37,148 bases of DNA from a virus: positions 1-37,148 of the IMG/VR virus record IMGVR_UViG_3300023708_000978. One strand, 5' to 3'. A program made the position numbers and the translations under genes. The stretch's first letter is position 1, and each line of letters starts with the position of its first letter. Positions 30,472 to 35,568 of the stretch are shown here, piece after piece. The notes under the pieces were generated by a model. It searched no databases and had not been told where the DNA came from. It saw nothing but the letters and a program-made list of their open reading frames with translations.

Positions 30472-30559
30472 GGAAGAGTGGCAGAGTGGTCGATTGCACT
30501 GGTCTTGAAAACCAGCGTTCCGCAAGGAACCGTGAGTTCGAATCTCACCTCTTCCGCCA
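30472..30559 (+). tRNA. tRNA-Ser (anticodon TGA), CCA encoded
   Basis: The full cloverleaf is visible. The acceptor stem is 30472-30478 with 30549-30555. The anticodon stem CTGGT/ACCAG spans 30499-30503 and 30511-30515, with loop CTTGAAA and anticodon TGA at 30506-30508. The class II variable arm is GTTCC-GCAA-GGAAC. The T arm is GTGAG (30532-30536) with CTCAC (30544-30548) and TTCGAAT loop. The discriminator is G and CCA is encoded at 30557-30559. It reads UCA codons. Its 3' end lies four bases from the integrase stop, so it is the likely integration target sequence. Because phage genes flank both sides, the phage itself appears to carry the complete gene. Confidence 0.95.
30499..30559 (+). 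other. probable attachment site core (attP) in tRNA-Ser
   Basis: The 3' half of the tRNA next to an integrase gene is the classic location of a tyrosine-recombinase att core. The anticodon arm (CTGGT-CTTGAAA-ACCAG) has the inverted-repeat shape that such enzymes use as core sites. The exact crossover limits cannot be set from this sequence, since no second partial copy of the tRNA occurs in the window. Confidence 0.55.
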
Positions 30560-30563
30560 AACA

Positions 30564-31625
30564 TCAGCCGACCAACCTGAGTTTCTCCCGCTGTGGGACA
30601 GACTCAATGTGGGCCAGCGCTTTTCCAAGTGCTGCATCCACCACCTCAGCGTGAGACCTGACTGACTCGGTTGCATGGTGAGCATATTTCTTCACCATGC
30701 TGGGAGTCTCCCAAGCCCCAAGCACCTGCAACGCACTGTCAGGAACCCCGTTCTGAACGAGGGTCGATGCCCATGTGTGCCGCATGTCGTGCCACCGAAA
30801 GTCCTCGATTCCAGCTTTGGCCAAGCAAGCCTTCCACGTCTCGTTGCTCACACTCTTCACAGGTTTCCCACGGAAGGTGAACACTGATTCGTGATGCTTG
30901 CCAATCTGTCGAGTGATGATGTCGATTGCTGCTTGCGGCAGTGGCAAACCAAAGGTCTGTCCGCTCTTCATCTTCAACCCGTCAATGACGGCAACTCTGT
31001 TCACGAGGTCAACTTCATGCCATTTCAAGCTCAACACGTTGGCTTGCCGAAGTCCGGTTGCCAGAGAGAAGGCTGCCATGTCACTCATGTGGGGTGGCAA
31101 TGCGGCCAACAATCTACTGACTTCATCGGGCTTGAGGAAACGTACTCGCTCCTTCGGCTCGTCATACATGAAAAACTTGGGTAGTCTTTCGGTCAACTGA
31201 TACTTCAAGTGCGCTAGTCTCAGAACAGCTCGCAGTGCCGCAAGGTAGCGGTTGCAAGTTGAGCCTGATGCTTCACGCTCTTTCTTTTTGATTGTCTTCA
31301 CAATCAGGTCTTGGGTAATCTGTCGAACATTTTTACCCACGAACTGCTCGCTCCACCAATCTAGCAACAGGGTGTACCCGTCAATCGTTGAGCCTTTGCG
31401 ACATGTGCCTTTGTCCTCAAGGAACATCTGCACACACTCTGTGAAAGGCACATCGGGTTTTACACCCAGCCTATGCTCTTCCCACATCTCGGCTTTCAGT
31501 TTGTCGTGAAGCTCTGTTGCCAACTGCTTGTTCTCTGTACCGGTTGAAGCTCGGTGCGGAGAACCATCGGGTCTGGTAAGTTTTATGTACCAGATTTTCG
31601 ATTTACCTCTTCGATATAGCGCCAT
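30564..31625 (-). CDS. int: tyrosine-family site-specific integrase
   Basis: This 353-residue recombinase inserts and removes the phage at the neighbouring tRNA-Ser. Catalytic residues are visible: R193 in ATGLRQANVLSLKW, H279-x-x-R282 in WHDMRHTW, and nucleophile Y314 in KKYAHH. The N-terminal SAM-like core-binding region spans about residues 60-150 and the extreme N-terminus (MALYRRGKSKIWYIKL) resembles an arm-binding domain. I chose ATG at 31625, preceded by AAAGGA. The open frame extends beyond it without ribosome site. The excisionase lies 22 bp upstream, so both are on one leftward transcript. Confidence 0.95.
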   Translation of the reverse strand: MALYRRGKSKIWYIKLTRPDGSPHRASTGTENKQLATELHDKLKAEMWEEHRLGVKPDVPFTECVQMFLEDKGTCRKGSTIDGYTLLLDWWSEQFVGKNVRQITQDLIVKTIKKKEREASGSTCNRYLAALRAVLRLAHLKYQLTERLPKFFMYDEPKERVRFLKPDEVSRLLAALPPHMSDMAAFSLATGLRQANVLSLKWHEVDLVNRVAVIDGLKMKSGQTFGLPLPQAAIDIITRQIGKHHESVFTFRGKPVKSVSNETWKACLAKAGIEDFRWHDMRHTWASTLVQNGVPDSALQVLGAWETPSMVKKYAHHATESVRSHAEVVDAALGKALAHIESVPQREKLRLVG

Positions 31626-31647
31626 AGTGTGTTCCTTTCTTGATTCA

Positions 31648-31854
31648 CTATTGAGCGCTACCGACCTGCCCAGTCGAACTTGCATTTTGCTGTGCCAATA
31701 AAAACTTGTCAATTTCGTCTCGGAAGGCACGCCAGTGGCTCTTGCCTCCGTAGCGGAAAACGGGAATCTTCCCGCTGACTGCCCAGCGTCGAGCTGTTTC
31801 CGGTGTGATGCCAAGCATCTTGGCAACCTCTTTCATTAAGATAACTTCGCGCAT
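31648..31854 (-). CDS. xis: excisionase / MerR-like HTH DNA-binding protein
   Basis: This 68-residue protein carries a winged-helix MerR/AlpA-type helix-turn-helix: MKEVAKMLGITPETARRWAV with the wing KIPVFRYGGKSHWRAFRDEI. In this place, just upstream of the integrase, it is most probably the recombination directionality factor that bends attachment-site DNA. It could also regulate int. ATG at 31854 has a good AAGGAG site. The open frame extending to 31902 has none. Confidence 0.8.
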   Translation of the reverse strand: MREVILMKEVAKMLGITPETARRWAVSGKIPVFRYGGKSHWRAFRDEIDKFLLAQQNASSTGQVGSAQ

Positions 31855-32244: not shown

Positions 32245-32463
32245 TTAATTAACAGTTGTGTGTGGTGGTGTATCAACACCAATCAATTCGTTTTCCATGA
32301 TGACCAGCGAGCCATCGAGCACGAATCCGGTTGCTTGCAAGAATCGCTCGAACACGCCGAGAACATCCTCAAGGTTGTCCAGCTTTGCTCGCATCGTGAT
32401 GCACTCGCCGCTGGTGTGGATGTTGCCCATCAAGAGCATGGTGTCTGGTTTAGGTTCGCTCAT
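32245..32463 (-). CDS. small hypothetical protein
   Basis: A 72-residue protein overlaps the next gene's stop by ATGA, indicating co-translation. It has a Cys- and Met-containing N-terminus and a helix LEDVLGVFERFLQATGFVLD followed by SLVIMENELIGVD. No domain is recognised. Likely a small accessory protein of the early operon. Confidence 0.5.
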   Translation of the reverse strand: MSEPKPDTMLLMGNIHTSGECITMRAKLDNLEDVLGVFERFLQATGFVLDGSLVIMENELIGVDTPPHTTVN

Positions 32464-32924
32464 ACGAATGGCTTCAAGTCAGGAGCAACCCAGCCTTCTG
32501 GTTTGCCAATCTTGCCGTTTGGTTTCAGAACAGGTTTGCCGTCAACGAGCTTGCGTTCATTGGCAGAGAGCACTTCCAAGTCAGCGCTATCCTTTGCAAA
32601 GCCAGCGAGGTAGGCGACACCATTGCCAGTGACTTCCAAATCACAAAGCGCATCCAAACATTCTTCACGGAACTCTTCCATTACTTCAACGCGCAACACG
32701 CCATCCTTGAGGCTGGTTGCCAACAGATTCATCGTCTCCATCGCAGCTTGCAACTGGATGGGGGTGGGGTAGACCTGACCATCTTGGTTTGATGCAATGC
32801 CGAGTGTGTCCATGAACTCCATGAACTCTTCGAGGTGGCATCCAACCTGAACAGACAGGTTCTCTTTGGTCTGGTCTTTGCCACAGGCAATCAACCAGTT
32901 CTTTGTTCGTTCAAAATTAGTCAT
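32460..32924 (-). CDS. MazG-like nucleotide pyrophosphohydrolase
   Basis: This 154-residue helical protein resembles the phage MazG / PRA-PH superfamily (PF01503 type). Acidic helices provide the metal-binding residues: VGCHLEEFMEFMDTLG near residues 28-43 and EECLDALCDLEVTGNGVAYL near residues 87-106. Such enzymes hydrolyse (d)NTPs or related nucleotides to NMP and pyrophosphate. Phage versions may remove damaged nucleotides or reset alarmone signals. The substrate is not readable from sequence. It overlaps the neighbouring Tad2-like gene by 8 bases. Confidence 0.7.
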   Translation of the reverse strand: MTNFERTKNWLIACGKDQTKENLSVQVGCHLEEFMEFMDTLGIASNQDGQVYPTPIQLQAAMETMNLLATSLKDGVLRVEVMEEFREECLDALCDLEVTGNGVAYLAGFAKDSADLEVLSANERKLVDGKPVLKPNGKIGKPEGWVAPDLKPFV

Positions 32925-33363
32925 TCACAACACTCCAATCTTCTGAAAGTAAATCTGTTTGGCTTGCAAGCCACGGCACTCGCTTGTCATCCACCGTCTT
33001 CATTTCGATGTAAGGCAGATAGCTCGGTGGAAGAACGCTCTTGCTGACGTAGCTCAGATACATGCCTTTACCGTTCCATCCGGCACGAGAAACTTTTGAA
33101 CCCATCTTCATGGCTTCAATCGCCAAACCGAATGTCATGCCGCTGGTTTGGAAGTAGGCTTTCTCAAACACTTCCTTCGGAGACCAAGACACATAGCCCT
33201 CAAACTCTTTGGTGTTTGCCTTGCCGCCGTCTGTGTATTCAACCAAGAAGCCTTCATCATCTGGGTTCTCGTCTGCTGGTACATCCCAGCCACGGAAGCA
33301 GTTGTACTCAAGCCGTGTCATTGGCTTGGCATTGATGACCTTTACGCCGATGTATTGCTTCAT
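32917..33363 (-). CDS. protein with C-terminal Tad2-like (DUF2829) domain
   Basis: This 148-residue, two-part protein starts with residues 1-70, a phage-specific module (MKQYIGVKVINAKPMTRLEY, then RGWDVPADENPDDEGFLVEY and YVSWSPKEVFEKAY). Residues about 76-146 match the DUF2829 pattern: TFGLAIEAMKMGSKVSRAGW, NGKGMYL, then PYIEMKTVDDKRVPWLASQT and EDWSVV. DUF2829 includes Tad2, a phage protein that binds and removes signalling ADP-ribose cyclic molecules of the Thoeris defence. The Tad2 role here is inference from fold family. Not all members need be inhibitors. The C-terminal Trp-rich motif W131/W143 is retained. Confidence 0.7.
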   Translation of the reverse strand: MKQYIGVKVINAKPMTRLEYNCFRGWDVPADENPDDEGFLVEYTDGGKANTKEFEGYVSWSPKEVFEKAYFQTSGMTFGLAIEAMKMGSKVSRAGWNGKGMYLSYVSKSVLPPSYLPYIEMKTVDDKRVPWLASQTDLLSEDWSVVND

Positions 33364-33629
33364 ACTGATACTCCCTGATACATGCGCTCTTTGAGCAAGT
33401 AGCCCTCAAGCGCCCACAGTTTTTGGAATGCGTTGGCATAGGACAGGTCTTTGCCAATCTGTTCATCAAAGTTCAGCCAGTCAGCGCAAGCAGATTCGCC
33501 GGTGACAACAAAGCCGTTGACCATCTTGATGGTGCAAATCGTCAGAGTGGTGTCTTCGATGCGCGTGTAGTTCACGCTGGCAATGCGAGCTGCAATGCCG
33601 TCAGATGTGATTCGATTTACTGTTGTCAT
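33360..33629 (-). CDS. Gp49-family phage protein
   Basis: This 89-residue protein (ATG at 33629) matches the pattern of the Phage_gp49_66 family: T(x)CTIKMVNGFVVTGESACAD, NFDEQIGKDLSYANA and a C-terminal KLWALEGYLLKERMY. These small proteins occur in the early regions of many phages. Their function is not known. Coupling by ATGA to the Tad2-like gene suggests joint expression. The open frame extends upstream of 33629 but covers the neighbouring small gene in another frame. Confidence 0.72.
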   Translation of the reverse strand: MTTVNRITSDGIAARIASVNYTRIEDTTLTICTIKMVNGFVVTGESACADWLNFDEQIGKDLSYANAFQKLWALEGYLLKERMYQGVSV

Positions 33630-33805
33630 GCGCGGCTCCCAATCTTTCCGTGTTCTGCTTTGATGTATGTGCCTTTGCGTCCAGAGTCCCACAAGAAGTC
33701 CCAGCACTTTTGCGCGAGCTTCCCTGCGTACTTGCTTTTTGCGCGGCGCTCTTTGTACTGCTTGACAGTTTCTTTTGCGCCTCGCTCTGGTGTGTGTAAG
33801 TTCAT
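33626..33805 (-). CDS. small basic hypothetical protein
   Basis: A 59-residue gene whose ATG at 33805 has the ribosome site TAGGA. Its stop overlaps the Gp49-family start by ATGA. The translation is strongly basic (VKQYKERRAKSKYAGKLAQK) and predicted helical, suggesting nucleic-acid contact. It fills the gap between two genes that would otherwise be unexplained. No family is recognised. Confidence 0.55.
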   Translation of the reverse strand: MNLHTPERGAKETVKQYKERRAKSKYAGKLAQKCWDFLWDSGRKGTYIKAEHGKIGSRA

Positions 33806-34561: not shown

Positions 34562-35365
34562 TTACTTGACGTGAATGAATGGAGTTGCGTTACCGGACAT
34601 GGTTGCTGGCAGCTTGCCGTCCCACTTCTCGATAGCCTTGAGGTCAACGTACTGTTGGCCGCCTTGTGCTGACACGGCTGCTGCTTTGATGCGGATTGCA
34701 TCTGCAACACCTTGAGCCTCTACACGCTGACGGTCAGCTTCTGCCTTGGCCAACTCAACTTCCTTTTGCTTGGCGTTGATTTGGAACTGGCGATTGGCTG
34801 CTTGCTTGATGGCTGCTTCCAATGCTGGGTCTGTCACCAAGTTGCGGACGTTGGCAGAGCGAACAAAGAACCAACCCTTGCCAGCGGATTCATCCAAGTC
34901 TTTCTGCAACTGCTCAACAATCTTTGCAGCGATTGCTGTGCGCTCTGTGTGAACTGTTGCAGAGTCGTACTTGGTGATTGCGTTGTAGATGTTTTCACGG
35001 GCTTGGCGCTTGACGTAGTTCATGCCAATGCGAGCGCCGTCTTCACCCTTCTCGTGAGTGATGTCACCCGGCCAGCGCGTCATAATGTCTGCGGCTTTGC
35101 TGGGGTCAATCTGGACATAAACGTCCACATCCAAGTCGGCCAAGGTAATCTTGTCGCTGGTCTGTGGTTTCATGTCATCGAACTGCAAGAGCAATTCTTT
35201 TGCGGACACTTCTGTCACGCGCTTGAACATGGTGAAGTAAACGCCGGGAGCCATAGTCTCGTGTTTGACTTGGCCAAGCGTTGATTCAACGCCGATGTTG
35301 CCAGTGTCAATCTGTGAACATGCTGTCAGCCAAACAGCAGCGAGAGCAATAAGAACTTTTTTCAT
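34562..35365 (-). CDS. SPFH/prohibitin-like lipoprotein
   Basis: This 267-residue protein with a lipoprotein signal peptide ending LTAC, cleaved before C16 with Ser at +2, is predicted to be an outer-membrane-retained lipoprotein. The following domain, GNIGVESTLGQVKHETMAPG through about residue 190, matches the SPFH (stomatin/prohibitin/flotillin/HflKC) pattern. It ends in a coiled coil (QKEVELAKAEADRQRVEAQG). SPFH proteins form ring-like membrane cages; HflKC regulates FtsH. A phage copy may alter envelope proteolysis, host entry by other phages or phage lysis decisions. Start chosen at 35365 (signal peptide). It lies 11 bp from a two-TM gene. Confidence 0.8.
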   Translation of the reverse strand: MKKVLIALAAVWLTACSQIDTGNIGVESTLGQVKHETMAPGVYFTMFKRVTEVSAKELLLQFDDMKPQTSDKITLADLDVDVYVQIDPSKAADIMTRWPGDITHEKGEDGARIGMNYVKRQARENIYNAITKYDSATVHTERTAIAAKIVEQLQKDLDESAGKGWFFVRSANVRNLVTDPALEAAIKQAANRQFQINAKQKEVELAKAEADRQRVEAQGVADAIRIKAAAVSAQGGQQYVDLKAIEKWDGKLPATMSGNATPFIHVK

Positions 35366-35376
35366 GGTGGTTGGTG

Positions 35377-35568
35377 TCAAAAAAATTTGGTTGAGCCGAA
35401 GATGGCTTGGAGTGCGAAGAACGCAAGCACCATGTTGATGATGAACAGCACCTTCCACAGATGCTGTCGGATGAACAGACTGGCAGTAACGCGAGCGGCG
35501 TTGCCCATGTACTGCCAGACGAAGTAACCGCCTATCCCAATGATGAGAAGAAGGAGGATGTGCTTCAT
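35377..35568 (-). CDS. small two-TM protein
   Basis: A 63-residue protein is nearly all hydrophobic: MKHILLLLIIGIGGYFVWQY at the N-terminus and LWKVLFIINMVLAFFALQAI near the C-terminus. It lies 11 bp upstream of the SPFH gene and 3 bp downstream of the SSB-like gene, so it is part of the same leftward operon. It is likely an inner-membrane protein, possibly partner to the SPFH lipoprotein. Function unknown. Confidence 0.6.
   Translation of the reverse strand: MKHILLLLIIGIGGYFVWQYMGNAARVTASLFIRQHLWKVLFIINMVLAFFALQAIFGSTKFF

Follow-up and report, generated by a model that had tools for sequence, protein, structure and literature searches.

The 148-residue protein encoded at positions 33363 to 32917 (minus strand) of a 37,148-base virus contig from IMG/VR, the whole of which is referred to here as the window, is probably a phage anti-defense sponge for the ADP-ribose-type signals of Thoeris immunity, paired with a sponge of the Acb4 family. 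The evidence supports a genuine Tad2-family domain that is fused to, and preceded by, a phage domain unrelated to it. Judged from sequence, this locus is most likely a two-sponge cassette, in which an Acb4-like protein would act on CBASS signals and the N-domain-Tad2 (N-Tad2) fusion would act on Thoeris ADP-ribose signals. The interest of this locus lies in a module shared among sponges and in the neighboring second sponge gene rather than in the fusion itself, which is common.

Gene organization

The preliminary description had listed an open reading frame at positions 32917 to 33363 without giving its strand. The frame is present on the minus strand, and all of the motifs quoted from it (e.g., FGLAIEAMKMG and YIEMKTVDDKR) are found letter for letter. 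It begins with an ATG at 33363, and a Shine-Dalgarno-like AGGGAG (33371-33376, minus strand) lies seven bases ahead of this codon. Residues 1 to 73 (33145..33363, minus strand) make up the N-terminal module, and residues 76 to 146 (32926..33138, minus strand) make up the Tad2-like domain. Directly upstream is an Acb4-family gene (PF13876, Phage_gp49_66; 33360..33629, minus strand), which encodes 89 amino acids from an ATG at 33629 and has a longer GTG frame that begins at 33707; its stop codon and the ATG of the fusion gene overlap as ATGA. On the downstream side, the end of the fusion gene shares 8 bases with the start of a gene encoding a MazG-like nucleotide pyrophosphohydrolase (32460..32924, minus strand; phrog_671, 5.4e-24; phrog_2144, 5.7e-7), in agreement with its earlier placement in the same operon.

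The plus strand of the window carries the virion genes, whereas the assigned genes between 37126 (Sak annealing protein, YqaJ nuclease, and Band 7) and an integrase gene (31826..30564) are on the minus strand. This minus-strand block looks like the early-gene region of an apparently temperate phage. A tRNA-Ser(TGA) gene (30472-30559) adjoins the integrase gene and is a likely attachment site, and this arrangement suggests a temperate phage. The Band 7/SPFH-domain protein of the early region (34562-35458, minus strand; PF01145, 7.8e-14) has a lipoprotein-like signal.

Identity, fold, and pocket of the Tad2 domain

The Pfam family PF11195 (Tad2-like, formerly DUF2829) matches residues 76 to 146 over its full length (profile positions 1 to 73 of 73; 3e-25), with a score of 89 bits against a curated cut-off of 25, and the earlier assignment of a DUF2829 domain to these residues therefore holds. 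NCBIfam gave no match for the fusion protein, and PADLOC reported none. Among solved Tad2 relatives, phmmer places ModTad2 first (3e-15), followed by AcrIIA7/HgmTad2 (3e-13), SPO1 Tad2, and SptTad2, and a profile made from 82 relatives recovers the same set at values up to 3e-27. An AlphaFold2 model built from 82 sequences has a pLDDT of 91.6. The comparison with Tad2 structures that had been proposed as a check gave a clear result: ranks 1 to 24 of the Foldseek search with the fusion model are all Tad2 structures, and, in comparisons of monomer models with VIA-align, residues 73 to 148 superpose on SptTad2, SPO1 Tad2, and ModTad2 with Z values of 12 to 13 and an rmsd of 1.6 to 1.9 A over 71 to 76 residues. 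By profile, sequence, and fold, this is the same domain as in SPO1 gp34.65 Tad2, ModTad2, SptTad2, and HgmTad2/AcrIIA7, with the invariant W, K, S, and D residues kept. However, those solved chains are single-domain proteins of about 88 to 104 amino acids, whereas the fusion protein carries a 73-residue module ahead of the domain and a far shorter beta2-beta3 insertion.

The gcADPR pocket of Tad2 is formed by the beta1-beta2 loop, the beta3-beta4 loop, beta4, the beta4-alpha3 loop, and alpha3 (PMC12043709). The WNGKG motif of the beta1-beta2 loop, which lines the ADP-ribose pocket in Tad2 (PMC12043709), corresponds to residues 96 to 100 of the fusion protein (33064..33078, minus strand). Across the 82 relatives, W96 is invariant and N97, G98, and K99 are nearly so, and the family-invariant residues W96, W131, S134, D137, D142, and W143 are all retained within the pocket-loop segments. 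In the alignment, the W, N, G, K, K-T, D, W, S, D, and D-W positions are the same in SPO1 Tad2 and ModTad2. Inspection of the ligand pocket had also been suggested; assessed by loops rather than by single ligand-contact residues, the predicted pocket keeps the invariant residues of the family.

Some Tad2 proteins use an insertion after beta2 to bind cyclic dinucleotides (PMC12043709). This insertion is shortened in the fusion protein (residues 107 to 117; 33013..33045, minus strand), and the distance from the tryptophan of WNGK to that of W(L/V)(A/P)S is only 35 residues, compared with 48 in both SPO1 Tad2 and ModTad2 and 66 in HgmTad2/AcrIIA7. The median distance among 194 relatives is 50; four relatives have shorter distances, and the fusion protein is among the 8 shortest. 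SPO1 Tad2, with a spacing of 48, does not bind 3'3'-cGAMP (PMC11722364). The subgroup of Tad2 proteins that bind cyclic dinucleotides, to which the cGG-binding HgmTad2 belongs, has a long beta2 insertion that the fusion protein lacks. The very short insertion thus argues against cyclic-dinucleotide binding by this Tad2 domain, and such binding is predicted to be absent. With the insertion so short, the alpha2 region, which forms a V-shaped dimer in solved Tad2, is largely missing, so the tetramer may differ.

The N-terminal module

The fusion of this N-terminal domain to Tad2 is a common phage architecture rather than something peculiar to the phage studied here. The family phrog_872, which spans residues 1 to 147 (1.2e-58), is the same two-domain protein, and its entry records neither a function nor the domain split. 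By tblastn, 286 phage records match the protein and 90 of them cover at least 80% of it; the matches include Kapi1 and a homologue in coliphage Louie that is 63% identical and annotated "anti-CRISPR." At least 593 relatives were found in IMG/VR with a pattern scan, a way of sampling that differs from a census. The preliminary description had called the arrangement unlike stand-alone Tad2, which is correct with regard to the extra domain but does not make it unusual among phages.

A distinct N-terminal phage domain of about 70 residues had likewise been recognized, and it behaves as a separate conserved domain in a 56-sequence alignment, in which its aromatic and acidic residues W26, E32, Y43, and D45 and an SWSP motif are conserved. 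Modeled alone, the module has a pLDDT of 96.5 and the order strand-helix-strand-strand-helix, giving three strands and two helices. The window sequence of the module matches no significant Pfam family, and fold searches gave no confident match: the best Foldseek hit has an E value of 2.2, and the best VIA hits are chromodomains (Z of 3.0; rmsd of 3.0 to 3.4 over 45 to 49 residues), within match lists that leave room for families they do not contain.

Two candidate identities for the module were considered and gained no support. A Dec-like decoration domain was prompted solely by the annotations of JELG-KS1 and SNUABM_DT01, and no chain of phage L Dec appears when solved structures are searched with a profile or with the single sequence, or in the fold-match lists. 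The ryanodine-receptor domain PF02026, which is the RyDEP family that cleaves cADPR (PMC13232231), is absent from the Pfam matches even at an E value of 1. In Klebsiella phage K17alpha62 (L038, 2501-2908) and Erwinia phage Fifi051 (L039, gp23), the module's reading frame either bears the annotation "virion RNA polymerase" or falls within a gene so annotated; these labels are probably the result of annotation transfer or of a misread frame.

The module is mobile and is found on Tad1, Acb4, PF21825, and combinations of these as well as on Tad2. Searches were made with the N-domain alone (alignment A2) to avoid favoring Tad2, and architecture classes were derived from stop-to-stop frames. Among 79 bacterial-genome loci, 43 encode the module with Tad2 (one of them also with PF21825), 14 with PF21825, 9 with Acb4, and 3 with Tad1; the module stands alone in 9, and 1 has no class. 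The 286 distinct proteins from all loci, among which the share of Tad2 is inflated by the queries used, comprise N+Tad2 (220), N+PF21825 (23), N alone (14), N+Acb4 (13), N+Acb4+PF21825 (4), N+Tad1 (3), N+Tad2+PF21825 (2), N+Tad2+Acb4 (1), and no class (6). Pfam independently confirms the classes of 49 members with other architectures (PF21825 in 29, PF13876 in 18, PF11195 in 3, and the Acb2_Tad1 hairpin in 3, the three Tad1 matches being slightly below the cut-off). Furthermore, the N+Tad1 protein of L154 resembles solved Tad1 (1.5e-16), and that of L179 shares 50% identity in its C-terminal part with the Tad1 of SBSphiJ7, the founding member. In these two proteins, the same module stands in front of an anti-Thoeris sponge whose fold is unrelated to that of Tad2.

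The order of the domains also varies. The module precedes Acb4 in N-Acb4 proteins but follows it in gp090 of Rhizobium phage RHph_X2_28B (Acb4-N), and N-Acb4-PF21825 (Achromobacter phage Axy13), N-PF21825-Tad2, and N-Tad2-PF21825 are found as well. A single 284-amino-acid protein (L313:1501-2355; also L314) consists of the module, Acb4, and Tad2, and in the isolated Alcaligenes phage vB_Af_QDWS595 (L394, 835-1950), gp05, an Acb4-Tad2 protein, adjoins gp06, an Acb4-PF21825 protein. PF21825 (crAss001_48; about 60 amino acids) is recurrently joined to the module, Acb4, or Tad2 (L129, L131, L143, L150, L296, and L329, among other loci), which makes it a candidate sponge family. Its identification with the known Acb2 was discarded, as single-sequence and profile searches with it match no solved Acb2 chain. 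A further partner, which has no Pfam match, bears the pattern DYAWAWHCNIAMxAFDxGxxHxxANxxAARFMxLxxGVDT (L036:2879-3421, L244:3001-3456, L362:1501-2160, and L382:1501-2043).

We give nearly even credence to the view that the module is a dedicated building block of sponges, used with Tad1, Tad2, and Acb4 and in swapped orders, that PF21825 is a further family of sponges or signal-removing proteins, and that single proteins hold several sponges against both CBASS and Thoeris. A purpose common to these proteins is more likely than one specific to Tad2 or to Tad2 assembly, because the partners of known function are all sponges, their oligomeric symmetries differ, and stand-alone copies exist. What that purpose might be can be framed in two ways. 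The module may serve to target or dock sponges at a single place or partner, or to stabilize them, without binding a signal itself. Its compact, confidently predicted fold and its acceptance of partners of differing symmetry in both orders (N-X and Acb4-N) are as expected of a tethered independent domain; however, a candidate docking partner is lacking, and the likeness to phage L Dec comes from two annotations that profile searches do not bear out. We regard this role as possible while leaning against it. It is rather unlikely that the module itself binds a signal, so that one protein would trap two messengers as N-Acb4-Tad2 and Acb4-Tad2 proteins seem to do. The restriction of its known partners to nucleotide-signal sponges, its occurrence as a small stand-alone gene in the genome loci, and the strong conservation of its aromatic and acidic residues are consistent with such binding, but its fold matches no nucleotide-binding protein and a sponge-type gene was detected next to only one of the stand-alone copies.

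The Acb4-family and MazG-like neighbors

The conserved neighbor of N-Tad2 is the Acb4-family gene directly upstream, which the preliminary description had missed. The upstream gene matches PF13876 at 8.5e-23, with 81.1 bits against a curated cut-off of 27. This family had no assigned function until it was identified as Acb4, a sponge that forms tetramers and takes up 3'3'-cGAMP along with related signals of CBASS; all eight of the eight homologues tested bound 3'3'-cGAMP, and "several" carry unexplained extensions (PMC11722364). In 59 viral N-Tad2 loci that have 2.9 kb or more of flank to either side, 26 Acb4 genes are found, all on the same strand and 24 of them no more than 1 kb from N-Tad2, a clustering with a binomial probability of 5e-10 against an even spread when kinship is ignored. 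When kinship is handled by clustering at 70% identity, and only in that way, 38 of the 118 N-Tad2 clusters have Acb4 at a distance of 1 kb or less. Relatives fuse Acb4 to the module and to Tad2, whereas here it is a separate gene. Of the ligand residues of SPO1 Acb4, F48, F62, and I66 are kept in the window protein, and E49, Y57, and T70 are changed, as they vary in other members too. Since E49 and Y57 read guanine in SPO1 Acb4, the ligand of the window protein may differ. In SPO1 itself (L120 and L395), the Acb4-family gene gp1.3 (PF13876; about 19.4 kb) and the tad2 gene gp34.65 (about 127 kb) are widely separated, in contrast to the pair in the window.

This neighborhood also bears on whether the fusion protein acts chiefly as an AcrIIA7-type anti-CRISPR instead of as an anti-Thoeris protein. 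AcrIIA7 is a DUF2829 protein (PMC6739104) that aligns to the fusion protein at the value given above, and a phage protein 63% identical to the fusion protein is labeled "anti-CRISPR protein." However, AcrIIA7 itself has been solved with cADPR bound (PDB titles 8kbj and 8kbk), so homology equally predicts sponge activity, and the gene adjoining the fusion belongs to a sponge family. We consider the anti-CRISPR reading very improbable.

The MazG-like gene, in which ExxE and ExxD motifs are visible, is probably a neighbor and not part of a module with N-Tad2. The earlier proposal of a signal-removal pair, in which Tad2 does the capturing and related nucleotides are broken down by the MazG-like enzyme, is the least credible reading and finds hardly any favor with us. 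The two genes do overlap by 8 bases, and the MazG-like gene also lies downstream in the closest relative (L003), but of 118 N-Tad2 clusters only 3 have MazG within 1 kb, only 5 scattered MazG genes occur in the 59 loci with full flanks, and MazG homologues are spread over 230 records of diverse phages. The low figure for the clusters indicates that MazG is in general no functional partner of N-Tad2.

Proposed function and implications

In the sponge function that we prefer, the Acb4-like protein and N-Tad2 would be produced from one operon early after infection. The Tad2 domain would oligomerize and trap the TIR-made messenger (1''-3' or 1''-2' gcADPR or His-ADPR), and the Thoeris effector would stay off. 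The Acb4-like protein would trap the cyclic-dinucleotide product of the CBASS cyclase, so that the pair would cover two classes of signal, a split with which the short Tad2 insertion agrees. The N-module would be an accessory part common to several unrelated sponge families, which may target the sponge or bind a signal or host partner. The newness of the shared module is provisional, as Hadary 2025 and Tal 2026 may already describe the module or PF21825.

The sharing of one accessory module by three unrelated sponge families provides a handle for finding further phage proteins that inhibit nucleotide-signal immunity. Each domain to which the module is attached becomes a candidate inhibitor, and an anti-defense role is predicted for PF21825 and for the unnamed partner domain. 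In addition, phrog_872, a common "hypothetical protein" in many phages, gains a likely meaning. Overall, these architectures suggest that phages may bundle CBASS and Thoeris inhibitors in one operon or in one protein, of which the window, with two putative sponge genes overlapping by ATGA, is a clear example.
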